Shown here piece by piece: positions 13,916-32,885 of a stretch of 64,000 bases of DNA. Both the position numbers and the translations under genes were made by a program. The DNA is taken from NCBI RefSeq assembly GCF_900105865.1, contig NZ_LT629804.1, forward strand, positions 620,001-684,000, written 5' to 3'. The stretch comes from Arcanobacterium phocae (GTDB lineage Bacteria; Actinomycetota; Actinomycetes; Actinomycetales; Actinomycetaceae). The notes under the pieces are model-generated. The model was not told the origin of the DNA. It was given only the letters and a program-made list of their open reading frames with translations, and made no database searches. Within the stretch, counting starts at the first letter, position 1. Every line of letters starts with the position of its first letter.

Positions 13916-15403
13916 ATGAGCGACAGCGAGTTGACAGCGTTCTATCGTGCAGTCGATGCGCTGGTTGATTATGCGGACGCCCATCTGGGTCTTGACCCGA
14001 CGGATGCGGATTGGACCCGCAACCGGATCTTCGGGCTGTTCGGACTCAACTCGTATCGGCCAACCGGTGCTACCGGGCGTGAACACGAGCGCCCAGATGC
14101 GTTGATTACACAATTGCGCGAGACGGGTATCGCGGCAGGTTTGTTTGACGCGGATGATGCGCCGTCGTTATGCGACCAGATGTTCGGGATCGTCAGCCTA
14201 CCGCCGTCGGGAATCAAAAACCGATTTTTCGACGACGTCGCTGCGCACGGCGGATCGTATGCAATGGACAGGCTCTACGATTACTCGGTCAAAAACAACT
14301 ATGTGCGGTTGAGTGTACTGGAGGAAAACCCGCGGTTTGAAACGAACGGGCTCGTTGTGACGATCAACAAAGCCAAACCGGAGTTTAAGAGCAGTGCTAC
14401 CGCGAAGGCCGGGAATGCGGTTGCCGGTGGATACCCGCAATGCTCGATCTGTCACGAGAATGAGGGCTTTGCTGGGCGTGCAAAATTCACCCTCCGCACG
14501 ATTCCGGTAACTCTTGGGGATCGGCCCTGGTTCTGGCAGTTCTCGCCATATGGCTATTTCCATGAGCACGGTATTGTGGTTAATCAGGAGCATAAGCCGA
14601 TGCACGTGAGCCGAGGAACGTTCCGGCGGCTGCTTGATTTCGTCGATCAATTCCCGGAGTTCTTTATCGGTTCTAACGCGGCGCTTGCTGGGACTGGTGG
14701 TTCAGTTCTGGGACATGACCATTATCAGGGCGGTAGGAAAACCTTGCCGATGCATACGGCTGGCACCTGGAAATCGTTGCGTTGCCCGGATTTCCCGAAC
14801 GTGACTGTGGAAATTTTGGACTGGCACAATACGGCAGTTCGGGTCGTGTCCACTGATCGTGATGCGATCGAGGAAGTATCGGAGCGGATTCGGGACGGTT
14901 GGGTCAACTATCGTAACGACGAGTTGGGCATTATTCCACGCGATGGCGATCAGGTGTTCTCGTCTGTTTCACCAACGGTGTTGATGACCGATCGTGGCTA
15001 TGAAATGTCCATTATTTTCCGGTCAAATATCACCAGCGAGAAATACCCTGAAGGCGTGTTCCATGCGCATCCGGAATACTTCGCAATCAAGCAAGAATCG
15101 ATCGGGCTCATTGAGGCTCAGGGCTTGTTTATTTTGCCGGGGCGTCTGGACGGGCAGCTTGCGCAGATCGGGGAATTGTTGGCTGAAGACCAGAAGCTTC
15201 CGGAAGAACTGAGCGAGTTTGCTGGAGTTTTTGCTGAGCTTCGCGAGCGGGTAGGTGATAGCCGAGATCCAGAGCGCATCGCTCAAGCGATCCGCGACGA
15301 ATTAGGAAGCGTATGCCAGCGAATCTTGCGGAACACTGCCGTGTTCAAAGAACATTCGACGACGCTCAGCTTCCTGGAGGACCTCGGGTTTATTGCTGAA
15401 TGA
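13916..15403 (+). CDS. galT: UDP-glucose--hexose-1-phosphate uridylyltransferase (GalT, bacterial family 2)
   Basis: 495-residue uridylyltransferase that exchanges UMP between UDP-glucose and Gal-1-P, linking the gnpA product to UDP-galactose and glycolysis. The active-site HxHxQ motif appears as GHDHYQGG (about residue 263), and the overall sequence is of the longer Firmicutes/bifidobacterial GalT class rather than the short E. coli class. Start at 13916 is supported by GGAGAG 8 nt upstream and by MSDSELTAFYRAVDAL being a typical N-terminus. Third and last gene of gnpA-nahK-galT; a strong hairpin follows. The epimerase galE needed to complete the pathway is not in this window. Confidence 0.92.
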   Translation: MSDSELTAFYRAVDALVDYADAHLGLDPTDADWTRNRIFGLFGLNSYRPTGATGREHERPDALITQLRETGIAAGLFDADDAPSLCDQMFGIVSLPPSGIKNRFFDDVAAHGGSYAMDRLYDYSVKNNYVRLSVLEENPRFETNGLVVTINKAKPEFKSSATAKAGNAVAGGYPQCSICHENEGFAGRAKFTLRTIPVTLGDRPWFWQFSPYGYFHEHGIVVNQEHKPMHVSRGTFRRLLDFVDQFPEFFIGSNAALAGTGGSVLGHDHYQGGRKTLPMHTAGTWKSLRCPDFPNVTVEILDWHNTAVRVVSTDRDAIEEVSERIRDGWVNYRNDELGIIPRDGDQVFSSVSPTVLMTDRGYEMSIIFRSNITSEKYPEGVFHAHPEYFAIKQESIGLIEAQGLFILPGRLDGQLAQIGELLAEDQKLPEELSEFAGVFAELRERVGDSRDPERIAQAIRDELGSVCQRILRNTAVFKEHSTTLSFLEDLGFIAE

Positions 15404-17809: not shown

Positions 17810-17834
17810 CTCCATCGAAATTAAAGACAACAAA

Positions 17835-20800
17835 GAAATACCCCCGCGTGTGCGGGGAAGAGTTAAGCCAATACCTTTTGTTACTGCTCGTACAGGAAAT
17901 ACCCCCGCGTGTGCGGGGAAGAGCTGTCATAACATAGGCTACAATCACCATGAATGGAAATACCCCCGCGTGTGCGGGGAAGAGTCGAGACAGCGTGTAA
18001 ACAGTTATCTCTCGATGGAAATACCCCCGCGTGTGCGGGGAAGAGATTTTTAAGCAGCATGCCGGCGTCGTTCACAAGGAAATACCCCCGCGTGTGCGGG
18101 GAAGAGACCCATACGGGCAAAACAACTGCTCATTCCACGGAAATACCCCCGCGTGTGCGGGGAAGAGCGTTGGTGATCCAAGTGAAAGTAATTTCTGCGC
18201 CGAATACCCCCGCGTGTGCGGGGAAGAGGCGATTCTTTTGGCTAATGGCGGTTCGGTTGAGGAAATACCCCCGCGTGTGCGGGGAAGAGCCTTGATTCAC
18301 CGCAGAGCCAAGGCCGCGTAGTGAAATACCCCCGCGTGTGCGGGGAAGAGTCTTTGGCAGCGTTGAAAGCGCCAGTTAATTTGGAAATACCCCCGCGTGT
18401 GCGGGGAAGAGCCCGTAAAACGCAGCGTAACCTTAATGCGCTTGGAAATACCCCCGCGTGTGCGGGGAAGAGCAACTCCAGCCGGTTCTTCCAATCGCGC
18501 GGCCTGGAAATACCCCCGCGTGTGCGGGGAAGAGGCGAAAGTTGAGCAGGACGCGCCGAAAGTCCTGGAAATACCCCCGCGTGTGCGGGGAAGAGCCGGA
18601 CTAAGACACATGGGACAGAGGATCGTCGGAAATACCCCCGCGTGTGCGGGGAAGAGCCTTGATTCACCGCAGAGCCAAGGCCGCGTAGTGAAATACCCCC
18701 GCGTGTGCGGGGAAGAGCCTCTCTCTTTAAAGGTGTTTGGGAAAGCCACGAAATACCCCCGCGTGTGCGGGGAAGAGTCTTTGGCAGCGTTGAAAGCGCC
18801 AGTTAATTTGGAAATACCCCCGCGTGTGCGGGGAAGAGCCCGTAAAACGCAGCGTAACCTTAATGCGCTTGGAAATACCCCCGCGTGTGCGGGGAAGAGT
18901 AAACTGCGCGATCCCTAACGCCATGTGCTGCGGAAATACCCCCGCGTGTGCGGGGAAGAGCCAGAACGGAATCTAATATCTTTAGAAATGATGGAAATAC
19001 CCCCGCGTGTGCGGGGAAGAGCTTAAAAATAGCGTCCAACCGTTCTAACTCAACGAAATACCCCCGCGTGTGCGGGGAAGAGAAATCAGAAGCTTTCTCC
19101 AAAGGACGATCCACGGAAATACCCCCGCGTGTGCGGGGAAGAGGATCTTTGAGCGTTGGTGCTGGAATATCGTTTGGAAATACCCCCGCGTGTGCGGGGA
19201 AGAGTTGTGACCGTCGCGTCCGACGGTAAAGTGTTTGGAAATACCCCCGCGTGTGCGGGGAAGAGCACTCAAAGACGCGCAAGAGTTCAAGCATCTCGGA
19301 AATACCCCCGCGTGTGCGGGGAAGAGTTGCTCGTGAATACTACTCGCAGTATGCAGGTGGAAATACCCCCGCGTGTGCGGGGAAGAGCGGCGAGCTTTCC
19401 AGATTTAACAGGGATGAGCGGAAATACCCCCGCGTGTGCGGGGAAGAGCTGCGGGGTGCTAGCCTGCGGGGTGCTGTCCTGGAAATACCCCCGCGTGTGC
19501 GGGGAAGAGGTCGCGTGCGACTAGGACCTCGGTCTGCAACCGGAAATACCCCCGCGTGTGCGGGGAAGAGCGTAAAAGAAACATCACACAAGGGGAACTT
19601 ATGGAAATACCCCCGCGTGTGCGGGGAAGAGCGTAAAAGAAACATCGCACAAGGGGAACTTATGGAAATACCCCCGCGTGTGCGGGGAAGAGCGCCGGTC
19701 AAATCATCACCACGATTCTAAGCGAGAAATACCCCCGCGTGTGCGGGGAAGAGGCGGTAGCAATGATTTGCGTTTCTGGATGTCCGGAAATACCCCCGCG
19801 TGTGCGGGGAAGAGGAAAGGTGTATTAGCTGGAGTAGCTTCAAAAGAAATACCCCCGCGTGTGCGGGGAAGAGCCTAATTCAGAGGTGAAGAAATGATCA
19901 CAGTTGGAAATACCCCCGCGTGTGCGGGGAAGAGACCAGCGTCCAACCCGCCAAGTCTTCTATAAGGGAAATACCCCCGCGTGTGCGGGGAAGAGGCGTG
20001 GAATCCAGACGGGACAACCGCGCGTATGGAAATACCCCCGCGTGTGCGGGGAAGAGAGACTAAATCAGTGGGCAATCGAAAACTTATCAGGAAATACCCC
20101 CGCGTGTGCGGGGAAGAGATAAGGTCACATCGGGACCATTCCCTTTCGTTGGAAATACCCCCGCGTGTGCGGGGAAGAGTATCTGGCGTTCGCGCACTTA
20201 TCTACACTGGCGGAAATACCCCCGCGTGTGCGGGGAAGAGGTGAAGATGTTGTTTTTACTCGATAAATAAACGGAAATACCCCCGCGTGTGCGGGGAAGA
20301 GAGTGCCGGTAAGTTTGTGCATATACTTCTCTTGGAAATACCCCCGCGTGTGCGGGGAAGAGCTCGGGCTTCGCTCGAAAAGATTATTTCTAGCGGAAAT
20401 ACCCCCGCGTGTGCGGGGAAGAGCCAGGGAAACGCGCGACGTGCATTTCACACATGGAAATACCCCCGCGTGTGCGGGGAAGAGGGTTTGCCAGCAGTCA
20501 AGCCAGATCTTGATAAGGAAATACCCCCGCGTGTGCGGGGAAGAGTGGATCCATATTTGCCGGAAAGAAAATTTATCGGAAATACCCCCGCGTGTGCGGG
20601 GAAGAGCAAACCGAATCTATTGCGCTTTGGCTTTGGCAGGAAATACCCCCGCGTGTGCGGGGAAGAGTGAGGGTTAAGATCGGCTCACGTTGTGTACCGG
20701 GAAATACCCCCGCGTGTGCGGGGAAGAGCTCATAGTCCAAATAGCTAAGCGAGCCAAGGCGGAAATACCCCCGCGTGTGCGGGGAAGAGAATAAAGCAAT

Positions 20801-23800
20801 CGAACACCCGACCACATATTCGGAAATACCCCCGCGTGTGCGGGGAAGAGTGTACCGATTGTTGCTAGATTCTCCATTACTTAGAAATACCCCCGCGTGT
20901 GCGGGGAAGAGCGCTGCCGAGGAAAACGCCGCTAATGATTCCAGGAAATACCCCAGCGTGTGCGGGGAAGAGGTAAGATCTCCGAGTAGACGACCCAATG
21001 CCCGGGAAATACCCCCGCGTGTGCGGGGAAGAGCCTGTTTAAGGGCTCCAGTAACTAATATAGGTGGAAATACCCCCGCGTGTGCGGGGAAGAGACGGTG
21101 CGGATACTTGCCTGCACGGTAGGTGTGGAAATACCCCCGCGTGTGCGGGGAAGAGTTGCTATTACACTAGCTTTATACGGATTAGAAGGAAATACCCCCG
21201 CGTGTGCGGGGAAGAGTGGCTAACTTCCTTGCTATTGTCGGTGTGGTTGGAAATACCCCCGCGTGTGCGGGGAAGAGTTGTCTTGGGGTGGCTCTTTCCA
21301 TATCTGGACGGAAATACCCCCGCGTGTGCGGGGAAGAGCAAACGCTGGCGCTTCATCAGGCTTCTCCGGAGGAAATACCCCCGCGTGTGCGGGGAAGAGC
21401 GCCAACGCCGAAATAACACCATTCTTAAAAGTGGAAATACCCCCGCGTGTGCGGGGAAGAGTACGCGGCTACTAGGATTCCAGCCGTAAAATTGGAAATA
21501 CCCCCGCGTGTGCGGGGAAGAGGACGCCAATCTTTGAATAACGCATAGATCCGCGGAAATACCCCCGCGTGTGCGGGGAAGAGTAGATGGAATACGAAAA
21601 ACTAACCGGGCTAGAGGAAATACCCCCGCGTGTGCGGGGAAGAGCTAAAACGGCAGTGCCGGTTAAGTGCCGGTTGGGAAATACCCCCGCGTGTGCGGGG
21701 AAGAGGTGTGTTACCGGACCAACACTCAAATCTCTACGGAAATACCCCCGCGTGTGCGGGGAAGAGCTGATGCGGTTAGGATCACCGAGGATGCGTCGGG
21801 AAATACCCCCGCGTGTGCGGGGAAGAGCTGCGCTAGTATCTTCCCTTGTAGGTGTAAGTGGAAATACCCCCGCGTGTGCGGGGAAGAGGTTAGCATTTTA
21901 CGTTTGCCGTTTTTATCGTAGGAAATACCCCCGCGTGTGCGGGGAAGAGACATTAGCCTCGCCGAAAATCTCCTTCAACACGGAAATACCCCCGCGTGTG
22001 CGGGGAAGAGTCTAGGTAAATGCTGATTCCGCGCTTAATATCGGAAATACCCCCGCGTGTGCGGGGAAGAGTGTGTACCTGTGTGTGTACCGGCTTTTGT
22101 ATCGGAAATACCCCCGCGTGTGCGGGGAAGAGGCGTAACCAGTCTGGGTATCCGATCAATGAGCGGAAATACCCCCGCGTGTGCGGGGAAGAGTCATACG
22201 ATCGGTAAGCGCAGCGTACTGTGCCGGAAATACCCCCGCGTGTGCGGGGAAGAGTCATACGATCGGTAAGCGCAGCGTACTGTGCCGGAAATACCCCCGC
22301 GTGTGCGGGGAAGAGTAGTCGCACCGATAATCGTCGCACCAGTGATAGGAAATACCCCCGCGTGTGCGGGGAAGAGGAGATCGCGGATGGCGTATTTGAC
22401 GATTTCGAGGAAATACCCCCGCGTGTGCGGGGAAGAGTGTTTTTAAGATTGAAACTCGAAATCTTGGCGGGAAATACCCCCGCGTGTGCGGGGAAGAGCT
22501 AAATCTTCAACAGTCGCGTAAACAGTCATCGGAAATACCCCCGCGTGTGCGGGGAAGAGTCACCGATTCGGTAAAAGCGCAAGAAATCAGCGGAAATACC
22601 CCCGCGTGTGCGGGGAAGAGAGCGCTAGTGCGGCTTGTTGCGGTACTACTCCGGAAATACCCCCGCGTGTGCGGGGAAGAGCGGCAAAGACTGGCAAGAA
22701 ATCAAAAACGGACGGAAATACCCCCGCGTGTGCGGGGAAGAGTACCCAACGGGTGTCGATTTCGCCGAATGCGAGGAAATACCCCCGCGTGTGCGGGGAA
22801 GAGTTAGACGAATCAGTAGCCCTGATCCGATACCTGGAAATACCCCCGCGTGTGCGGGGAAGAGATCAACGTCCAGATCAACTAGGCTAATGAGTTGGAA
22901 ATACCCCCGCGTGTGCGGGGAAGAGATTCGCGAGCGCGTCTACTTCGTCGCTGGTTAGGAAATACCCCCGCGTGTGCGGGGAAGAGCTTCTATTTTTCCT
23001 TGGCTTCCCAATAAAAAGTGAAATACCCCCGCGTGTGCGGGGAAGAGACGTCGTCTAAGTTCGTTTCGTCCTTGAATACGGAAATACCCCCGCGTGTGCG
23101 GGGAAGAGTGCGATAGTCTCCGCCTAATATGCGGATTTCTGGAAATACCCCCGCGTGTGCGGGGAAGAGCGCCTATTATTATGGCGATTGTTTCAGTGGT
23201 TGGAAATACCCCCGCGTGTGCGGGGAAGAGACGGCCGCTACAGACTGATCCAAATAGAATTAGGAAATACCCCCGCGTGTGCGGGGAAGAGCTGTGGTTA
23301 CGCGCCAGCGCCCGGCTGGGTCGGAAATACCCCCGCGTGTGCGGGGAAGAGACTCCGACGCCATAAGCCCGTGGGGAGCCGCCGGAAATACCCCCGCGTG
23401 TGCGGGGAAGAGCTAAGATTTCACTTACAACCGGTAGGACTAAGGGAAATACCCCCGCGTGTGCGGGGAAGAGTAGCAGCCGTTGCTATGGGCGGCGTAT
23501 ATGTAGGAAATACCCCCGCGTGTGCGGGGAAGAGAGATCTTGGCACGGGCTTCCACCCGCAATGATGGAAATACCCCCGCGTGTGCGGGGAAGAGTTTTG
23601 AAAGACGGTGCGCTGCGCAGCGTGTCAGGAAATACCCCCGCGTGTGCGGGGAAGAGGTACACGGGGGGGCAAACGGCAACCCGCTAAGGGAAATACCCCC
23701 GCGTGTGCGGGGAAGAGCGGCAGCGATTGTTATCGCGATTGCGAACCTAGGAAATACCCCCGCGTGTGCGGGGAAGAGCTTCAGCACTACGATTAACAAA

Positions 23801-23900
23801 CGATGCACGAGGAAATACCCCCGCGTGTGCGGGGAAGAGGCGGTAATGCAGATATCGGGAAATACACGCTAGGAAATACCCCCGCGTGTGCGGGGAAGAG
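17835..23900 (-). CRISPR. Type I-E CRISPR array, about 100 repeats and 99 spacers
   Basis: A 28-nt core repeat recurs every 61 bp from 17835 to 23873. The spacing arithmetic (6038 bp = 98 x 61 + 60) gives 99 intervals, with one spacer a base shorter (between 23264 and 23324). On the minus strand the repeat begins CTCTTCCCCGCACACG and ends GCGGGGGTATTTC plus a variable 29th base that is mostly C, the orientation normal for type I-E crRNA. So transcription runs right to left, the leader end is at 23900 next to cas2, and the oldest spacers are near 17.8 kb. Internal variants: the repeat near 20944 has one substitution and the one at about 18201 is altered at its edge. Duplicated spacers occur at 18290-18870, 19570-19662 and 22190-22282. 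Confidence 0.98.
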
Positions 23901-23920: not shown

Positions 23921-24235
23921 TCAACGATTTCGAATTTTGGATTTTCCACGTCCGGGACGCATAGCTATAACGGTCAGGCCGTCCAGGTCCAATACTTTTC
24001 GTGAATTTTTTCCTGCAGTGAGCATCGAGAATCCTTGTTCTTGTCGCGGGTCGTTATAAATCATAGTAGAAGTTCCTTCGTCGAGCGTAGTGCTCACACG
24101 TTCCCACAAGCGTTCACGAACGTTTCGTGAAATATTTCCAACGTAAACACCACTTTCAACCTCAGTGAGGAATCGGGTCACGTACCCATGAAGATGCTCG
24201 GGAACTGCGGATATTGTTAAGACTGCAAACATCAT
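23921..24235 (-). CDS. cas2: CRISPR adaptation protein Cas2 (type I-E)
   Basis: 104-residue Cas2e, the scaffold of the Cas1-Cas2 integrase that inserts new spacers at the leader end. The sequence MMFAVLTISAVPEHLHGYVTRFL with a following GVYVGNISRNVRERLW is characteristic of the type I-E subfamily. The start overlaps the cas1 stop as ATGA, so it is the last gene of the leftward cas6e-cas3-cas1-cas2 operon. The stop lies only 20 bp from the first repeat of the array. The 3' part of the coding sequence also contains a candidate promoter for the array, which would make this a dual-function segment. Confidence 0.95.
   Translation of the reverse strand: MMFAVLTISAVPEHLHGYVTRFLTEVESGVYVGNISRNVRERLWERVSTTLDEGTSTMIYNDPRQEQGFSMLTAGKNSRKVLDLDGLTVIAMRPGRGKSKIRNR
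23964..23992 (-). promoter_or_regulatory. Candidate array promoter inside cas2
   Basis: On the minus strand, TTGGAC (23992-23987), 17 bases, then TATAGC (23969-23964) make a sigma70-like promoter. Transcription would begin near 23957, about 55 bases before the first repeat. This is a sequence match only. Confidence 0.4.
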
Positions 24236-25185
24236 TCATCGTCTTTTCCATATTGGACATGCCCAGAAACTTCACCGTGATCGTTGATCAAACGGTCATC
24301 ATCACGGTTTGGCAGGTGCGGCTCTAGAATTTCCATGAGCGTTCCAAGCATATCTTCCAATATATGCTTGTTGTGAATTTGCCTCCGTAAATCGCGTCTA
24401 ATTTCGCTGATAGGATCCTCATCGTGTGCATGGCTAAAAACGAGAGGCAAAACGATACGCGCTTTATATAAGTCTGCTAGGTCAAACAGTAGTGCGCGAA
24501 TGTCTCCACGATGAATAATTCCTAAAGCAGGATTAACCCCTATCGCTGCACACACTGTGGCTGCTACACCGTACATAATGGAATTTGCAACATTAAGGCC
24601 AGTATTTATTGGGTCAGCGGCGGCGGTGTCCCTTTTAAAGCCTTTAATCTTGGCTTTTTTAGCTAAATCGCGGTAAGTGGTGCGCATGATGCGCCCTTCA
24701 ATACCGCGCATTACTTTGATCGAAGCGTCCCTGACCTGTCCAGCGCCGAATTGTTTCGAATAGAGCTTAATAGCAGCAACTTTTTGCGCGTCAAGGGAAG
24801 ATATTAAACGGGCCTGCGCTATCGCCCATTTTGCAGAAGACGATAAAGGGGTTGCATGTGCATAGGCATTGACGCCGCCACCTCCTGAAAAGGCGACAGT
24901 GCATCCTGAACGAGCGCATGACGTTATTGCAGCATTAGAGATACTAGTCCCAGGTCCAAGGCATAGAACTCCTAGTCCGGCAACAGGGAGTTGGATTCGA
25001 GTTACGGTTGCTTCGGAGTCTGGGTTATCGTCGTCGTCAGTTGCGTCTTGAATGGCGACGACGCCGGTGCGATCTTGTCGTACGAGGCAATACTCCAGAT
25101 ATAAAAACGATATTCTGTCTTCAATTCGCACCTGATGGTTTGCGGGTATTGTACTGAACGCGAGTGCTTCTTGGGAATAACTCAT
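24232..25185 (-). CDS. cas1: CRISPR integrase Cas1 (type I-E)
   Basis: 317-residue Cas1e, the metal-dependent integrase that catalyses spacer insertion together with Cas2. An N-terminal beta domain starts MSYSQEALAFSTIPANHQVRIEDR. The helical C-terminal domain has the conserved Glu in MRGIEGRIMRTTYRDLA, the His in LGIIHRGDIRALLFDLAD and the following Asp, which together form the metal site. The frame is open to 25269, but ATG 25185 is preferred because it starts at the conserved strand and lies 4 bp after the cas3 stop. The stop overlaps the cas2 start by 4 nt. Confidence 0.95.
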   Translation of the reverse strand: MSYSQEALAFSTIPANHQVRIEDRISFLYLEYCLVRQDRTGVVAIQDATDDDDNPDSEATVTRIQLPVAGLGVLCLGPGTSISNAAITSCARSGCTVAFSGGGGVNAYAHATPLSSSAKWAIAQARLISSLDAQKVAAIKLYSKQFGAGQVRDASIKVMRGIEGRIMRTTYRDLAKKAKIKGFKRDTAAADPINTGLNVANSIMYGVAATVCAAIGVNPALGIIHRGDIRALLFDLADLYKARIVLPLVFSHAHDEDPISEIRRDLRRQIHNKHILEDMLGTLMEILEPHLPNRDDDRLINDHGEVSGHVQYGKDDE

Positions 25186-25189
25186 AGTG

Positions 25190-27841
25190 TCACGAATTCT
25201 GTAGTAGGCCAGTAAAACCGATGGAAGAGTCGTAGAACTGGTCGGCGTTGGGAACGAAATAGTAACCACTCAAAAGTGTACGGGATTCAGTTAATGGGAT
25301 GGCGCCAAGTTCTTCGAGAAAATCTTCCTTCACATGCGGGTTACTCTCCGAATTGCGGGGAATTGAAAGTGGCATGGAAGCGCGTAAAGCCTCACGAAGG
25401 TTTTCTTTATCTTGTGAAGATAAGGCGAGAAGGTCCTCCACCGTTCCAGGCCAAGCACCTGGAATCATAGATTCTGAGCTACCCAGAATAAACCGACCAT
25501 TAGACCCTTTGTCGATAAGCCGTGTTGTTGATTCGTCCGCCGGGTTATTCGTGGTGAGTGCAACGAAATTCCCAACGATAGAGCGCTCTGTTAAGGCGTC
25601 TGTTATCCGGGCGCGGTTAGATTCTGCACGCATCGCCTTCAAAACTCCTTCAGTAACAGCCTCCATGTCAAAATCGGTGAGTGCGTTCTCAAATTTAACG
25701 TGAGCAGAGTCAATAAACTCTTGTGCATCGTCTGGAATCACAAGTTGGGAGTGTTGATCAAGCCACTCATGGGTGTGTTTAATCTCCGCAGCTAAATATG
25801 GACGGTAGGGCCAGCTTTGGTCAGAATCAAACCAAGTCACAGTGAGTGTTTTCTGGTTTTCTTCAGGGCAACGAGATTCGCGAAGAGGATCATTTCGGCG
25901 CCATTGCCTGCCGGCACGCTGAACGAGTGACGGTGCTGGACAAACTTCGGTATTCAAGAAATCAAGATCAATATCGAGAGAAGCCTCGATCGCCTGTGTT
26001 CCAACAACGGTGATGTTAGTGCCGGTTCCGTGCGGCCCAAGTAAATCAAGGAGTAATTGTGCATTTTGACGACGATGTTCCGCAGTCATTCGTGAATGTA
26101 AAACTACGACAGTCTCGCCGCTTTTAGCGATTTGTCGTGCAGTTTCTTGCGCTCGCGCTACAGTGTTACAAATAATTCCCAGGCGCGCTTGTGGAAACTT
26201 CGCACGTACTTCTTTGTGCCAAAGTACGTGGGAGTCAACGAGGGAATCATATTCTGTTTGACGCAGGTCAATTGCCATAGCTGCAGTGAGAGACTCAACT
26301 GGAATTGAGGCAGTTTTATTTTTGGTAACGACGTCGATCGATGGGAAAACTGGTGGCTCAAGTTCTTTTTCTACTTGAGAATATGCGGAAATGAGTTGCT
26401 GACGTTGTTCACTGGGCATCGTGGCAGTTAGGAATGTTACTCGAGTCCGAGTTTTTGCTAACCACGGCAGTAGCTCCTCCAATAACTTGGTTTGGTAAAC
26501 ATCGAGGGTATGAACTTCGTCGATAACAATATGTGCATTAGCTAGCGCTAGAAGTCTGAAATGTATCCACTTCCCAGGTAATGCAGAAGCCAATGCTTGA
26601 TCGATTGTTCCTACACAAACAGGAGCGAAAAGTCGGGCGGCTCCGGCTCGCACAAATGATGACGGATATAGTCCACTGGGTTGATCGGTCTGGTTTTCAT
26701 GTGAAACGTATTGTGCTTCGTCGTCGTAGAGTGAAAGCGGCTGCTGGTAAAAATCTTCCACGGAAGCTAAGCCGTGGGCTAGTGCTGCTACGTTGCTTGT
26801 GTCTCGATAAGCATGTTGGACTCGGCGCATAATAGCGTTAGACGTAGCTTGAGTGGGTAGCAAGAAAATGAGACGTTCAGGTCGGGTAGAATGACGCAAC
26901 AATGCTGCTTCAGTTTTACCGCTACCAGTAGTAGCCATCAATGACCATAACCCTTCTCGAGCATTGAGGGCTTCTTGCTGAATCGGGCGTGGGTCATAAT
27001 CACCTAAAATTGCATGCTTAGCCGCCTCTTCGTCCTTCCATGGAGAATAAACACCCACTGTGGCACGAACCCGTGATACTGCTTCTTTTTCGCGTTCGAT
27101 TATCCAACGTGCTGGATTTTCAAGTATGTCAGGGGAGCTCTCAAGCAAAGCAAATCCGCCGTCAACGAATGGTTCTCCAGAAGCGATCCGATCAGCTAAA
27201 ACAATTAGCCCGGAAAGAAACAACGTCAAAGTTGAATCTAGCTTTTCTGGAATATCTTCGCGACCGAGGTCGCAGGATTTCAATACACCGTCCGTTAAGT
27301 CGTTCTGGGCGGCAGACCAGCCGCCGTATTCTAGTTCTTCGAGGAGTTCTTTGGTATCCGATGCGGAAATTATAGTAGTGAACTTTCCGTGATGGCCGCC
27401 GAGAGTTAAATGGAGCCATGCTCTCTTAGCTAGTTGGCGTGAAGACGGCAGGATTGGTTGACTAGCGTACGCAGATAGTTGTTCATGTCGGCGAGCTTGC
27501 GGATTTGACCGTTCTAAAGCTATTGAATCGTTTGAAAGGCTGGAGTAGCTACCAGATTCCTGTATGTTTTTTCGAATCTTTTCCCAGCGTTGTGCTTTAT
27601 CTGCTGGACGTTGCTGAAATAGTGGAATGGCTTTACCAACATCATGGAGTCCCGCAACGCATTGGACGATGGATTTAGCTTTGTCTCCAAGATTTTCACG
27701 GAATAGTTCGCGTAATCCTTCGCGGAGCCACTGGTCATAGAGAACACCAGCAATCGTTGTGGTGTCAAGTAAATGAGCAAGTAATGGATATGTTTTATCA
27801 AATCCGTCTTGTTTTGCCCACAGTTCAGATCGTGTGTTCAT
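25190..27841 (-). CDS. cas3: CRISPR helicase-nuclease Cas3 (type I-E)
   Basis: 883-residue fused HD nuclease/superfamily 2 helicase, recruited by target-bound Cascade to unwind and degrade DNA. HD domain, about residues 1-270: LLAHLLDTTT, GLHDVGKAIPLFQ and a later HEQLSAYA histidine. Helicase, about 270-800: Walker A MATTGSGKTEAAL, DEVH box IDEVHTLDVYQ, motif III LTATMPSE and motif VI QRAGRQWRR. The C-terminal domain is short. The start at 27841 overlaps the cas6e stop as ATGA, against an in-frame ATG ten codons earlier. Cas3 is thus translated in the leftward operon together with the adaptation genes, apart from four of the five Cascade genes. Confidence 0.96.
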   Translation of the reverse strand: MNTRSELWAKQDGFDKTYPLLAHLLDTTTIAGVLYDQWLREGLRELFRENLGDKAKSIVQCVAGLHDVGKAIPLFQQRPADKAQRWEKIRKNIQESGSYSSLSNDSIALERSNPQARRHEQLSAYASQPILPSSRQLAKRAWLHLTLGGHHGKFTTIISASDTKELLEELEYGGWSAAQNDLTDGVLKSCDLGREDIPEKLDSTLTLFLSGLIVLADRIASGEPFVDGGFALLESSPDILENPARWIIEREKEAVSRVRATVGVYSPWKDEEAAKHAILGDYDPRPIQQEALNAREGLWSLMATTGSGKTEAALLRHSTRPERLIFLLPTQATSNAIMRRVQHAYRDTSNVAALAHGLASVEDFYQQPLSLYDDEAQYVSHENQTDQPSGLYPSSFVRAGAARLFAPVCVGTIDQALASALPGKWIHFRLLALANAHIVIDEVHTLDVYQTKLLEELLPWLAKTRTRVTFLTATMPSEQRQQLISAYSQVEKELEPPVFPSIDVVTKNKTASIPVESLTAAMAIDLRQTEYDSLVDSHVLWHKEVRAKFPQARLGIICNTVARAQETARQIAKSGETVVVLHSRMTAEHRRQNAQLLLDLLGPHGTGTNITVVGTQAIEASLDIDLDFLNTEVCPAPSLVQRAGRQWRRNDPLRESRCPEENQKTLTVTWFDSDQSWPYRPYLAAEIKHTHEWLDQHSQLVIPDDAQEFIDSAHVKFENALTDFDMEAVTEGVLKAMRAESNRARITDALTERSIVGNFVALTTNNPADESTTRLIDKGSNGRFILGSSESMIPGAWPGTVEDLLALSSQDKENLREALRASMPLSIPRNSESNPHVKEDFLEELGAIPLTESRTLLSGYYFVPNADQFYDSSIGFTGLLQNS

Positions 27842-28536
27842 GCTAGAGCCTGTACTGTTAATAGGCCACATCCGTACGCTTTGGCTCGGCCAACGCCATG
27901 AAGAATGAGGCTGTTGAGTTCTGTCCCATCTACAACAGTTGCTATCGCGTCTACAGTATCGACTTGGACGATCATAGAACCTGTAGACTTCCCGTTTCGG
28001 TCAACACCCAAGAGTTCACGTTGATGATTGGTTATTGTTACGTCACCGAGGGCTTTTTTGAGTTTGTTCCTCAGCCAAGGAGTCATTGTTTCGTGATTCT
28101 GTGATTTTTCGGAGGCTTTTGGAGAGAAATCGAATGGGATAGGTGCGGCAATAATTTTAGGCTTTGTTAAAGAGGTGCCATCGGTAGTTGTTTTCCGTCG
28201 AATGGCGTTAACTGACAATCTCAACCGAACCGGAGTTGCTGTGGGCAGCACTTCAAGTTTCCGTTCGACTGTGAGTGTTCCGGTAGGGGCATGTGTTGGT
28301 GGAATTTTTGATTGAACTAAAAAGAAGGGAGCTTGGCCAGCGAGGTAATCTGCACGGAAAAGGATAGCGGCATTCTCACGGGGTTGATCTGACTCAATGG
28401 TGTCAAAGAGCGCCATGACTGCACGGTGACGGAATTGTGGATCGGTTTCATCCCAGCCGTGTCGTGGTTTGTTAGCAGCCTTCTGACTAAGCGCAAGATG
28501 AATAGGATACTTTGTCAGATACAGTGACTCGACCAT
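27838..28536 (-). CDS. cas6e: CRISPR RNA endoribonuclease Cas6e (Cse3/CasE)
   Basis: 232-residue pre-crRNA endonuclease that cuts at the base of the repeat hairpin and stays bound to the 3' end of crRNA within Cascade. Two ferredoxin-like folds are expected. The C-terminal glycine-rich loop GVGRAKAYGCGLL is clear, and an N-terminal His in LTKYPIHLALSQKAAN or the RHGW segment is a candidate catalytic residue. AAGGGG lies 5 nt before the ATG. It is the first gene of the leftward operon and diverges from cas8e across the 248-bp gap that holds the pseudo-repeat locus. Finding cas6e separated from cas5e is not the usual type I-E order. Confidence 0.94.
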   Translation of the reverse strand: MVESLYLTKYPIHLALSQKAANKPRHGWDETDPQFRHRAVMALFDTIESDQPRENAAILFRADYLAGQAPFFLVQSKIPPTHAPTGTLTVERKLEVLPTATPVRLRLSVNAIRRKTTTDGTSLTKPKIIAAPIPFDFSPKASEKSQNHETMTPWLRNKLKKALGDVTITNHQRELLGVDRNGKSTGSMIVQVDTVDAIATVVDGTELNSLILHGVGRAKAYGCGLLTVQALA

Positions 28537-28556
28537 GTCCGCCCCTTAAGTGTAGA

Positions 28557-28565
28557 TGCTATTAT
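28557..28565 (+). promoter_or_regulatory. Extended -10 promoter for the crRNA-like RNA
   Basis: TGCTATTAT fits an extended -10 element (TGN plus TATTAT). The start site would fall at about 28571-28573, at the beginning of the first pseudo-repeat. No convincing -35 is seen, as is common with extended -10 promoters. Confidence 0.4.
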
Positions 28566-28569
28566 TATC

Positions 28570-28642
28570 CAGTTCCCCATTCTTATGGGGGTATTTCCAT
28601 TGTTTTACAAGTTAGATTCCCCGCATACGCGGGGGTAGGTTT
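28570..28642 (+). ncRNA. Putative crRNA-like regulatory RNA (CreR type): pseudo-repeat, 15-nt pseudo-spacer, pseudo-repeat
   Basis: Pseudo-repeat 1 (28570-28598) matches the crRNA-strand repeat at 20 of 29 positions. Its last 12 bases, GGGGGTATTTCC, are exact, and the inner stem has changed from CCCCGC/GCGGGG to CCCCAT/ATGGGG, so pairing is kept by compensating changes. The pseudo-spacer is ATTGTTTTACAAGTT (28599-28613). Pseudo-repeat 2 (28614-28642) matches 21 of 29, with a perfect hairpin CCCCGC-ATAC-GCGGGG and a diverged 3' end. The parts a mature crRNA needs, the 8-nt 5' handle and the 3' hairpin, are the conserved ones. An exact copy of the pseudo-spacer lies in the cas8e promoter. The RNA would be read rightward, opposite to the array. 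Confidence 0.7.
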
Positions 28643-28703
28643 CTCCGAACTTTTGGAGGAATTGCCTTCTCTTATAAAAGTACATGGCTCTTTCAATAAA
28701 ATC

Positions 28704-28737
28704 AACATTGTTTTACAAGTTGAAATACCTATATTCT
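28704..28737 (+). promoter_or_regulatory. cas8e promoter region containing a protospacer-like copy of the pseudo-spacer
   Basis: ATTGTTTTACAAGTT at 28707-28721 is identical to the pseudo-spacer and is preceded by AAC (28704-28706). A candidate -35, TTGTTT (28709-28714), and -10, TATTCT (28732-28737), are 17 bp apart, so a complex bound to the 15-mer would cover the -35. The 15-mer also contains TTGT-N3-ACAA, so a protein operator is the alternative. Confidence 0.55.
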
Positions 28738-28784
28738 GATACTACAGTTTATGTTATACCAATCACTATGAGGAGTAGGGGAAG

Positions 28785-30434
28785 ATGGATATTAATGCAT
28801 TAACAGACATTAATTGGGTCTCCACAACACAAGGTGACGTTTCTGTGCGTGAAGCGCTAATACGAGCCCATGAACCGGATTTCATGCTAGATCTACAAAA
28901 ACCAGCATACGATGTTGCGGCAACGTTCAGATTTCTGCTATCTGTTGTTGCGCTCGTGCTTCGTTATGAAGAGAACTCAAAGTGGGAAAACGCGGGAGAC
29001 ATGGCAATTTTGTCTGCTGATGGTCTGAGTAGTTTTGCAATAGACCGTGCTTTGGGTGTGCTCTCGTCTAGTGCCAATCTCTTTGATTCAGCACATCCAT
29101 TTATGCAACGGCCGGTTTTGCCCCTCAAATCAGGTAAAGACACTTCGCGTAAAATAGGGCCTGGGGATCAAGAAGTCAAGAAACTTTCTCCTGCCATGCC
29201 TTCTGATCGCGGAGAGGATTATTGGGATCTTATTGTCAGCTTTCCAACGAAACTCTCCCTCTCAGAAGCTGTTATGAAGCTAGTGACCTATCATTACTAT
29301 TCCATGGCCGGAAATAACAAATATGATGGCGATAAAACACGCATGGGTGCTCCAGGAATTAGGTTTCTCGGAAAAGGCAATGCGGCTACAGAATTTATTT
29401 GGAAAGTCGATGGAGAGAGTTTCTTATATTCGCTTCTTGCGTCTTTACCAAAGAATTGGGTTGACGGGCAAGGGCTTCCGGCATGGGCAGACCGTGAGAT
29501 GAATGCATCGAAGCTATTAAATGGGTTACCTCATCCGTTATGGATGGGGACCTGGAGTTCGAATACTGCAGCCTGCTACTGGGAAGAAGAAAACGGCCAG
29601 CAACTCCTAACCGGAGTTCGTGTTGGGGGTGTTCCACCACAATGGTTACCAATTGCTTATGTTGGTAAAGACTCAGAAAAAGCATTAAAAGAATGGTGGG
29701 ATATCCGAAACGAAAATGATCCAATGTATCTCTACATGGGAGATTCGAAAAATGGTGATGGAGCTAAAAAAGCTCAGCGCATTGACTTTGGTCGAGATGG
29801 AATCGATCTAGCAATAGAATGGGCTGCGGAAGACAAGCTTGCTGCACTGCTGAACTCCGGTAATGCAAATGTTCTTCCAAGTGACGCGGAAGATCGTACA
29901 CCTATCTTTTTTAGACATCAGATTGAAGGTACAGCTTCCTCGCCAAGCGTTAGAGCATCGGATGTCTTTTACGCAGATCCAGATGTTTGGGGCTTCGGGT
30001 TGCGGTCTCGACAACAGAAAGTGATCAAGCGTAAAGCAACGTTAATTCGTGCTATTCATCGCAAGGTCACTGGAGTGTTCCGACGTCGGAATGCGTCAGA
30101 TGCGAAAACTGAAGCGAGCGGTTATCCGGCACTCGTGTTGGACGCTCTGGAAAACTCTAGAGCTGATGCCTCGGCAGAATTTTGGCGCCAAATAACGCCA
30201 GTTTATGAAGCGTATATGAGTGAGCTTCGAGCTGGTAGCCCAATCGATGAGGAATTATCAAAAGGAATATATCGCGCGGCAATGCAAACTTTTGATCATG
30301 TGACAGAGCCTTTTATCGGCCAATACTCGCAACAAATTTATGCAGTTCGAGGAAGCCTTTCCCGCATTATTCAGAAGATCATTCGTGAACACCACAACGT
30401 AACCGAAGAAAACAACGTTACCGAAGAAAACTAA
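28785..30434 (+). CDS. cas8e: Cascade large subunit Cas8e (Cse1/CasA)
   Basis: 549-residue large subunit of type I-E Cascade, which recognises the PAM, starts R-loop formation and recruits Cas3. The N-terminus MDINALTDINWVSTTQGDVSVREAL and the motif DPMYLYMGDSKNGD fit the Cse1 family, and a C-terminal four-helix bundle is expected from about residue 400. The ATG at 28785 has GGAG and GGGG purine tracts 5-11 nt upstream. It is first in cas8e-cse2-cas7-cas5, with a leader carrying the protospacer-like sequence, so its expression is the natural target of the proposed regulatory RNA. The last residues contain a short duplication (NNVTEEN twice). Confidence 0.93.
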   Translation: MDINALTDINWVSTTQGDVSVREALIRAHEPDFMLDLQKPAYDVAATFRFLLSVVALVLRYEENSKWENAGDMAILSADGLSSFAIDRALGVLSSSANLFDSAHPFMQRPVLPLKSGKDTSRKIGPGDQEVKKLSPAMPSDRGEDYWDLIVSFPTKLSLSEAVMKLVTYHYYSMAGNNKYDGDKTRMGAPGIRFLGKGNAATEFIWKVDGESFLYSLLASLPKNWVDGQGLPAWADREMNASKLLNGLPHPLWMGTWSSNTAACYWEEENGQQLLTGVRVGGVPPQWLPIAYVGKDSEKALKEWWDIRNENDPMYLYMGDSKNGDGAKKAQRIDFGRDGIDLAIEWAAEDKLAALLNSGNANVLPSDAEDRTPIFFRHQIEGTASSPSVRASDVFYADPDVWGFGLRSRQQKVIKRKATLIRAIHRKVTGVFRRRNASDAKTEASGYPALVLDALENSRADASAEFWRQITPVYEAYMSELRAGSPIDEELSKGIYRAAMQTFDHVTEPFIGQYSQQIYAVRGSLSRIIQKIIREHHNVTEENNVTEEN

Positions 30435-31095: not shown

Positions 31096-32151
31096 ATGGC
31101 AAAGAACCTAACATTACACATTATTTCTAACGTCCCATATTCCAACCTTAACCGTGACGATTCCGGAACTCCGAAACGCCTGATGCAAGGTGGTGCATTG
31201 CGTGCAATGCATTCCTCTCAGAGTATTAAGCGCGGTATTCGAGGGAAATATGAAGAAGCTAGCCTAGATATTTCGGTGCGTTCTGGAAAACTTGTTGATG
31301 AAGTACTTGATATCGCTACCAAGCTGAATCCAGAGACTGATAAAGAAGCGTTACGTAAGCCAGCAGCAAAGCGTATTGGCGAATTGACAAAGGGCGAAGC
31401 TGTAGATAAAGAATCAGATCGTTCGGCATGGCTATCAGTCGAAGAACTCACAACTCTCGCGCAGAGCCTCCTTGACGGCGAAGAGAAGAAAGAATTTATT
31501 ACCGGTGGCAAGACTGGATCATTAGCGATTGCGGCTTTTGGACGTATGTTTGCCAATGCGCCAGGGAAAAACACTGAAGCTGCGATTGCAGTATCGCCAG
31601 GAGTTACTACTCACGCTGCAACAATCGAGTCAGATTACTTCTCCACCGGAGATGATGTACGTGAACGTAACCGTGAATCGGGTGCGACTTATCTGGGCGT
31701 ATCGCGATATGTGAACGGCACATTTTATCGGACAATTTCGATAGATAAAGAGCAACTGAAGGCTGTTTGGACTGCTTTTGACCTTCCAGAAGCGCGGGAT
31801 AACCTGCGCGAATTCATTCGAGCTACGGTTTACGGCATGCCACGCGGTAAGGAAAATTCTACTGCTCCTTATACAATGCCAAGTCTTGTTTTTGCGGAAG
31901 AACAGCGTTACCGCACTGCATACAGCTTTGAAAAGCCAGTAAAAGTAGGTGCAGACGGTGGTTATGAAGCTGAATCTATCAAAGAACTTGCTGCACAATA
32001 TCAGCGAGCACGATCGTTTGATCCGCATAATTTCGGCCCGCTCGAAGTCGTTTCAGGAACTGCTGAAATCTCCGAAGAACAGTTCGCAGGCGCAGAACGC
32101 GACAGCCTTGACGGCATGATCGATCGCATTGTTGATTGGATTGTCCAATGA
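31096..32151 (+). CDS. cas7: Cascade backbone subunit Cas7e (Cse4/CasC)
   Basis: 351-residue RRM-fold backbone protein, six copies of which coat the spacer part of crRNA. The N-terminus is diagnostic: LHIISNVPYSNLNRDDSGTP, then LMQGGALRAMHSSQSIKRGIR, equivalent to the family's NLNRDDxGxPK motif. The C-terminal YFSTGDDVRERNRESGATYLG and GKENSTAPYTMPSLV segments also fit. GAAGGA precedes the ATG. The stop overlaps the cas5e start as ATGA. Confidence 0.95.
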   Translation: MAKNLTLHIISNVPYSNLNRDDSGTPKRLMQGGALRAMHSSQSIKRGIRGKYEEASLDISVRSGKLVDEVLDIATKLNPETDKEALRKPAAKRIGELTKGEAVDKESDRSAWLSVEELTTLAQSLLDGEEKKEFITGGKTGSLAIAAFGRMFANAPGKNTEAAIAVSPGVTTHAATIESDYFSTGDDVRERNRESGATYLGVSRYVNGTFYRTISIDKEQLKAVWTAFDLPEARDNLREFIRATVYGMPRGKENSTAPYTMPSLVFAEEQRYRTAYSFEKPVKVGADGGYEAESIKELAAQYQRARSFDPHNFGPLEVVSGTAEISEEQFAGAERDSLDGMIDRIVDWIVQ

Positions 32152-32885
32152 TTGAATCGCTATATATCCGACTGAGTGGACCACTTCAATCGTGGGCTGG
32201 CCCGGCGGTGAGCGGTAATATCATTCGCACTGAGCCATGGCCTACCCGTTCTGGCCTTATCGGTCTACTTGCGGGCGCCCTGGGTGCTGAGCGTGGAAAA
32301 TGGCCGGAGTGGTTAAACGATATCGAATTCGTTGTACGTCAAGATCGGCGTCCTAATATCGTCGATGATTTTCATACAATTAATCCGCGAACGGAATCCG
32401 CGCTTTTTCGCAGAAGGCATCTGATTGTTCAGGGACTTTCCTCCGGTAAAGCCAAGGGCAAGGCACTGATTTTCACCCCTGATGCACAAGGTGGGACGTC
32501 GGTTGTTAACCGTACCTATCTCGCAGACGGCGAGTTTATCGTGCGAATTACATCCGAAAAACATCTTGATGAGCTGGAAAACGCCTTAGCAACACCTGGT
32601 TTTGTAACCTATCTTGGACGCAAAGCGTTTGCTCCAGATTTCCCGTTCTATCTGGGGCGGGGATCTGCCGATTGCATTAACGAGATTCCAGTAGTTTCCA
32701 ATCTGCATCGAACTGTTGAGAACGAACAACCTCAATCTCAGCCGGTAACAATGGTGACTTATGGTCCATTCCATCCGGCTAGTGGGCGGCGGAATCAAAC
32801 TGCTATTACCGTAGTCAACCAACGCGATGAGCAATTATCTTTTATCAGCGACCATTTGGTTATCCGACGGCAACTAGCTGCCTGA
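32148..32885 (+). CDS. cas5: Cascade subunit Cas5e (CasD)
   Basis: 245-residue RAMP protein that caps the 5' handle of crRNA in Cascade. The opening MIESLYIRLSGPLQSWAGPA with TEPWPTRSGLIGLLAGALGAERG is characteristic of Cas5e. The start at 32148 is chosen for the 4-nt ATGA overlap with cas7, against an in-frame ATG four codons earlier that lies inside cas7. Last gene of the rightward operon, followed by a strong hairpin. cas6e, which normally follows it, is instead the first gene of the divergent operon. Confidence 0.94.
   Translation: MIESLYIRLSGPLQSWAGPAVSGNIIRTEPWPTRSGLIGLLAGALGAERGKWPEWLNDIEFVVRQDRRPNIVDDFHTINPRTESALFRRRHLIVQGLSSGKAKGKALIFTPDAQGGTSVVNRTYLADGEFIVRITSEKHLDELENALATPGFVTYLGRKAFAPDFPFYLGRGSADCINEIPVVSNLHRTVENEQPQSQPVTMVTYGPFHPASGRRNQTAITVVNQRDEQLSFISDHLVIRRQLAA

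Follow-up and report, generated by a model that had tools for sequence, protein, structure and literature searches.

A mini-CRISPR unit whose guide co-varies with the cas8e promoter in Arcanobacterium phocae and its relatives, very probably a CreR-type autorepressor of a type I-E system

CreRs are reportedly cas-regulating RNAs of type I-B, I-E, and V-A CRISPR-Cas systems, as described by Liu et al. (Cell Host Microbe, 2023). The available text of further papers assigns CreR-mediated autorepression to types I-B, I-E, and V-A (PMC13131331) or to type I and type V-A (PMC12737573), and presents CreR as a mini-CRISPR RNA (PMC12948488). CreTA, which comprises the CreA antitoxin RNA and the CreT toxin RNA, belongs to haloarchaeal type I-B systems according to the available part of PMC9458426. 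CreA is stated there to have degenerate repeats, psiR1 and psiR2, of which psiR1 has kept and psiR2 has lost its 5' handle (PMC9458426), and it acts by a short 11-bp seed match to the promoter, as given in the accessible text of PMC10989794. The locus described here shares this repeat anatomy with CreTA. With CreR, as far as the available descriptions go, it has in common a mini-CRISPR RNA partially complementary to a cas promoter, type I-E being among the subtypes named. Set beside these descriptions, the particulars of the present element are its occurrence in five actinobacterial genera, a co-evolution of guide and target that is read from sequence, and the 15-nt pseudo-spacer of the group to which A. 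phocae belongs.

The window, i.e. the whole stretch of 64,000 nucleotides that was analyzed and to which all coordinates refer, lies within a single-contig genome of 2.0 Mb and contains a type I-E locus with cas2-cas1-cas3-cas6e on the leftward side and cas8e-cse2-cas7-cas5 on the rightward side, cas6e and cas8e being divergent and separated by a gap of 248 bp.

17834-23900, minus strand: CRISPR array with 99 copies of the repeat core, the presumed source of competing crRNAs
23921-24235, minus strand: cas2, passes the NCBIfam cut-off
24232-25269, minus strand: cas1, passes the NCBIfam cut-off
25190-27871, minus strand: cas3, passes the cut-offs for the Cas3 core and the HD domain
27838-28536, minus strand: cas6e, divergent, with an NCBIfam score of 42.3 bits, slightly below the cut-off of 45.2
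28785-30434, plus strand: cas8e, which heads the operon presumed to be regulated, Pfam Cse1 score of 55.4 against a cut-off of 24.7 bits
30455-31063, plus strand: cse2, passes the NCBIfam cut-off
31096-32151, plus strand: cas7, passes the NCBIfam cut-off
32136-32885, plus strand: cas5, passes the NCBIfam cut-off

The cas8e product had no match among the NCBIfam models. The consensus repeat of the array, which reads leftward, is CTCTTCCCCGCACACGCGGGGGTATTTCC (99 copies). An initial annotation of the window had proposed that the cas6e-cas8e gap encodes a CreR-type regulator. The gap contains, in this order, psiR1, a 15-nt guide, and psiR2, followed after 61 bp by AAC and an exact copy of the guide.

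28557-28565, plus strand: candidate extended -10 element TGCTATTAT (TGC TATTAT) of the putative CreR gene, from sequence
28570-28598, plus strand: pseudo-repeat 1 (psiR1), 20/29 identical to the array repeat, stem CCCCAT/ATGGGG
28591-28598, plus strand: 5' handle GTATTTCC within psiR1, identical to that of the array repeat
28599-28613, plus strand: 15-nt guide ATTGTTTTACAAGTT, established by direct reading, genome search, and comparison
28614-28642, plus strand: pseudo-repeat 2 (psiR2), 21/29 identical, with the stem of the array repeat and a degenerate handle (4/8)
28638-28663, plus strand: weak terminator-like hairpin at the end of psiR2, a possible end of the CreR transcript
28704-28706, plus strand: PAM AAC preceding the target
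28707-28721, plus strand: target, an exact guide copy in the cas8e promoter region
28720-28748, plus strand: probable cas8e promoter, with -35 TTGAAA (28720-28725) and -10 TACAGT (28743-28748) separated by 17 nt

The degenerate repeats thus listed lie outside the array and beside the cas genes, as is typical of CreRs, and the guide has the limited complementarity to an effector cas promoter, next to a PAM, that is likewise characteristic of these RNAs, the promoter assignment being weak when taken alone. The repeat identities given in the initial annotation proved exact against the array consensus, and direct reading confirmed that the 15-mer recurs at a distance of 93 bp. It had also reported an exact handle in repeat 1 and a perfect hairpin in repeat 2, for which 8/8 and 12/12 matching positions were counted; retention of precisely these two parts is a trait known from CreTA. 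The RNA was found to fold into the two hairpins described (z -2.59), an equally good fold being reached by 3/200 shuffles. A search of 28400-28900 against Rfam returned no match up to an E value of 1.

The second copy had been placed over a candidate -35. The only sigma-70-like promoter in 28400-28900, TTGAAA-17-TACAGT, does overlap the target by two bases; with 1.3 sites of this kind expected at random, the promoter scan alone constitutes no evidence. The extended -10 proposed ahead of repeat 1 fared similarly: it exists at 28557-28565 and in 3/4 aligned loci of the genus (it is absent from L011), but the consensus promoter scan of 28400-28900 reported no promoter there. Transcription of the CreR gene is expected to start near 28572, and a mature CreR of 44 nt (28591-28634) is predicted, both of its ends being deduced from the DNA. 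A terminator scan found two sites against 0.3 expected, the second being psiR1 itself.

The exact 15-mer occurs at two places in the whole genome, guide and target. Allowing up to two mismatches gave 7 places, as compared with 6 for a reversed control pattern. No further genomic target was convincing: the best candidate, at position 457719, has GTC as PAM and falls where a coding region ends, and such hits are consistent with chance. Downstream of the target, the cas8e leader (28750-28775) contains a block ATGTTA-(2 nt)-CCAATCACT-TGAGG that is kept in four genomes of the genus (the window and L009 to L011). It is constant, in contrast to the drifting spacer on the upstream side of the target, and it seems to be more than a ribosome site needs.

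For comparison, Cas8e homologues were collected from the family of A. phocae (23 of 213 genomes, two of them matching weakly; initially 21 of 151), from samples of the order (12 of 396) and the phylum (24 of 396, by Pfam Cse1), from one other family (2 of 245), from one genus (4 of 35), and from named genomes (19 loci); a search of 351 genomes of another family gave no match and is uninformative. Altogether, 62 upstream stretches were examined, certain genomes being represented twice. The 15 nt after each handle-like GT[AG]NTTCN served as guide candidates, and the best downstream match was sought with all positions unmasked and no PAM demanded; the pattern fits these repeats, and units with other handles could escape it. 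Matches with at most 3 mismatches were found in 21 of the 62 stretches, and the other 41 had no handle or no significant match. These 21 were reduced to 14 distinct pairs by dropping L009, whose guide is that of the window (L008), and the duplicates or near-duplicates L017, L018, L033, L037, L038, and L041. Four named Rothia genomes (L090 and L092 to L094) were counted once, and the weak Cas8e matches L056 to L060, L091, L103, and L104 were left out.

The distinct pairs comprise the window, L010, L011, and A. pluranimalium (L013=L033) in Arcanobacterium; Trueperella bernardiae (L020=L041), its genus-mate L014, and Actinotignum schaalii (L016=L037) among other Actinomycetaceae; Rothia halotolerans, R. 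endophytica, Rothia sp., and R. nasisuis (L031, L032, L034, and L047); and Corynebacterium sp. MSK297, C. propinquum, and C. halotolerans (L039, L040, and L042). A weaker fifteenth pair, in Varibaculum cambriense (L024=L046), has four mismatches (positions 6, 12, 14, and 15); it is visible only with the search narrowed to 350 nt and was left out of the 14. A hairpin-based detector applied to the 62 stretches recovered 12 of the 14 distinct pairs, missing L047 and L032 (as well as L024). On 23 upstream stretches of 27 phylum-wide Cse1 loci, which exclude the window's own locus and three partial matches and cover the upstream side of cas8e only, it found nothing convincing, an absence that is weak evidence; at its loose threshold, 64/310 shuffled stretches score too.

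Guide sequences have little in common between genera, and each fits its own cas8e promoter with 0 to 3 mismatches. Single-base shuffles of the downstream sequence never matched as well in 13 of the pairs (0/300), and did so once in 300 in L032. On average, 12.8 of 13 read positions match in a guide's own target, as compared with 4.6 of 13 in the targets of other loci, the highest value for a foreign target being 11/13 (L039/L040, one genus). The initial annotation had called for an alignment across relatives to see whether guide and target co-vary, and they do, turning over together except at positions 6 and 12. The guides of the window and L010 differ at positions 1, 4, 8, 10, and 12, and their targets differ identically at 1, 4, 8, and 10 but not at 12. 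Wherever a guide has changed at a read position, its target shows the same change (L008/L010, 4/4; L008/L011, 3/3; L039/L040, 2/2; L014/L020, 3/3), with a single target-only change, at position 15, between L014 and L020. The promoter match spans approximately the first 15 nt in each clear pair, even where the pseudo-spacer has 32 nt (L031).

The mismatches are far from evenly spread. Of the 18 found over the 14 pairs, guide position 6 accounts for 8 and position 12 for 7; the remaining three are at read positions (15 in L014, 9 in L032, and 10 in L034). For random placement within pairs, the probability of at least 15 mismatches at 6/12 is 5.6e-13, a figure that assumes independent pairs though several share a genus and is to be taken as a guide only. 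With L024 added, 17/22 mismatches are at 6/12; the pair of the window is exact and carries no such pattern of its own. Type I-E Cascade leaves every sixth base of the crRNA flipped out and unpaired, and a 5-nt seed with a good PAM is often enough for binding by E. coli Cascade (available text of PMC5904413). The same text reports position 6 of off-target sites to be matched above chance (45%) (PMC5904413); here it is matched in 6/14 pairs.

This bears on the possibility that a protein repressor, as considered in the initial annotation, or an activator binds the two 15-mers as a duplicated operator with TTGT-N3-ACAA half-sites. The 15-mer of the window does contain this palindrome, and the guide of A. 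pluranimalium has a different one; moreover, GAAATACC, which flanks the target, matches the end of psiR1 in inverted orientation. However, the exact palindrome is confined to one of the 14 distinct guides, that of the window, while the other 13 lack it and yet fit their own promoters. GAAATACC is lost in the nearest relative, where L009 has GAAAAAAT, and an operator would be expected to show the same motif at both copies in relatives, which the comparison with foreign targets contradicts. The mismatches at 6/12 and the trinucleotide ahead of the second copy argue in the same direction. We know of no protein operator that would leave a 6/12 mismatch pattern together with such co-variation, and a duplicated operator is considered extremely improbable. 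Relatives with the 15-mer pair but no pseudo-repeats, which would have favored it, did not appear when the first 20 upstream stretches were inspected by k-mers; loci picked by their handle could miss handle-less pairs.

The trinucleotide in question is AAC or GAC in 14/14 distinct targets. Ahead of the guide copies, the handle pattern enforces TC followed by any base, and the guide unit itself therefore has no such PAM. Of 18 C. halotolerans spacers, 6 match Corynebacterium phage Lederberg with at most one mismatch, four of them exactly, and the flanks of these protospacers are AAC (four), GAC (one), and CAC (one); a seventh match (5 mismatches, flank AAG) was left out of the count. Because these phage flanks agree with them, the promoter targets bear the PAM expected for such systems, and the AAC that had been proposed as PAM is supported. 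The spacers of the window gave no protospacer in the phage collection, nor did three of them in viral contigs (0 matches), so that the PAM of the window rests on a relative. One record of the phage collection that matched a window spacer looks like another array rather than a protospacer, and 13 plasmid records matching at 66-76% identity are probably other arrays as well. The arrays of L106, L039, and L032 also gave no protospacers.

The anatomy of the RNA is conserved beyond the window. Over 17 loci (L040 scored with the array repeat of L039), the psiR2 stem is kept (94 and 97%) and the psiR2 handle lost (53%), whereas in psiR1 the handle is at 85%, a value inflated by picking on the handle pattern, and the stem letters are at 64 and 76%. 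It had been suggested that the psiR1 stem is kept through compensating changes. Its positions pair in 88.5% of cells, as compared with 46-69% when the alignment is slid, with two-sided changes in 12 cells; these counts cover 13 of 17 psiR1 copies, L032, L034, and L047 (irregular stems) and L026 being omitted, which favors the stem. The percentage paired, the number of cells with two-sided changes, and the covariation score beat all 500 shuffles, but two of the five measures fail (pairs with a two-sided change, 212/500; pair types, 374/500), and this suggestion is thus upheld in part.

The start of psiR2 varies and lies 15, 19, 20, 21, 27, 31, or 32 nt after the handle (20 or 21 in L034, decided by one match). 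In all 17 loci, the pseudo-spacer length differs by at most one from 32 minus a multiple of 6, a post hoc rule that half of all lengths would pass, and the independent cases are judged to be about ten. Length-altered Cascades with changed subunit numbers are known for E. coli type I-E. These were engineered, in contrast to the natural lengths seen here, which lie near 32 minus multiples of 6 and would fit such complexes; altered Cascade stoichiometry is also mentioned in the available text of PMC10989794. It is conceivable, with the odds somewhat against it, that CreR guides shrank in whole Cas7 steps and form natural mini-Cascades beside the normal Cascade, which would serve only gene control and could not license Cas3. 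In the group of A. phocae, such complexes would have about three Cas7 subunits fewer. If true, these small natural Cascades would bind without cutting and could be useful for gene control without removing Cas3.

The anatomy, the PAM, the position at the promoter, and the co-evolution of guide and target with a type I-E pairing signature are direct observations, and the initial annotation is supported by the joint turnover, the 6/12 mismatches, and the PAM. We consider it very probable that 28570-28642 is a CreR, i.e. a two-repeat mini-CRISPR outside the array that autorepresses the cas8e operon, where transcription, processing, repression, and titration are deduced from the DNA. The transcript would be cut after the psiR1 and psiR2 hairpins by Cas6e, the expected processing enzyme, to give a crRNA-like product of 44 nt with the handle GTATTTCC, the 15-nt guide, and a 3' hairpin. 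Cascade loaded with this RNA would bind AAC and the 15-mer at 28704-28721 and block the -35 of the cas8e-cse2-cas7-cas5 promoter, so that Cascade would limit its own synthesis. If crRNAs of the 99-repeat array, or an anti-CRISPR protein, took Cascade away from CreR, the operon would be derepressed. With pairing limited to 15 nt, neither a full R-loop nor cutting by Cas3 is proposed to occur. Short spacers of a type I-B system repress without interference, and those of 16 and 20 bp lowered the target only to about two thirds, according to the accessible text of PMC10989794; the 15-nt guide could therefore be a mild repressor.

The same general anatomy, an ectopic repeat unit, is that of CreTA (available text of PMC9458426), and the RNA might accordingly be thought to repress a small toxin gene within the cas6e-cas8e gap and so render Cascade addictive. 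The target is at the cas8e promoter, however, and only 36 nt lie between the end of the promoter-like -10 there and the cas8e ATG, which appears to leave no room for a separate gene; an antitoxin of this type is thus hardly to be expected. A further difference is the clear hairpin with a conserved stem, none having been seen in haloarchaea as far as the text of PMC9458426 extends.

Not all related systems possess the element. Of 21 family genomes with Cas8e, 10 have a clear pair and one has the weaker pair of L024; in 9 the pair is absent or unclear, and one is cut by a contig end. One of four named Corynebacterium loci, L043, has no pair. Since about half of the related systems are without a clear pair, the CreR element is dispensable. 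In Actinotignum timonense (L019=L036), repeat remnants upstream of cas8e have no guide match. These absences, and the remnants in particular, would fit a decayed mini-array left by an old rearrangement and devoid of present function. A relic, however, would not hold a changing guide matched to a changing promoter, and for the window this explanation is very unlikely. A. timonense itself looks like a case of rearrangement through arrays with a decayed CreR, and the loss fits, but does not prove, a mutual dependence of guide and target. Mobiluncus mulieris (L026/L048) has both pseudo-repeats and a 19-nt guide, the best promoter match of which has 7 mismatches; its target may be elsewhere, or the pair may be decaying.

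Type I-E CreRs are already in print, and the unit described here is most likely a further, well-supported CreR. A literature search gave no report on CreR in these genera among the matches listed, subscription journals being mostly outside its coverage. Within one group of actinobacterial type I-E systems, autoregulation by a crRNA-like guide seems to be a recurring feature. Guide turnover amounts to a natural experiment on the crRNA positions that Cascade uses (6 and 12 free, nearly all others held), independent of structures.

Several minor observations concern the arrays and their surroundings. In A. timonense, an array reaches to approximately 0.6 kb upstream of cas8e, where the sister species have cas6e, and cas6e is some 270 kb away. 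Actinotignum loci L016 and L017 have an inverted repeat, GTTTCTCCC/GGGGAGAAAC, between psiR2 and the target. In the array of the window, a 153-nt stretch (18323-18475) recurs 427 bp on at 18750-18902 with 99% identity, and neighboring identical or near-identical spacers are found at 22187-22272 and 19575-19658. Finally, array stretches of three of the genomes tried match positions 14010-14642 of MT835722.1. This 20.7-kb record, a 'Bacteriophage sp.' from human faeces that is without annotation, probably contains a CRISPR array whose repeat is related.
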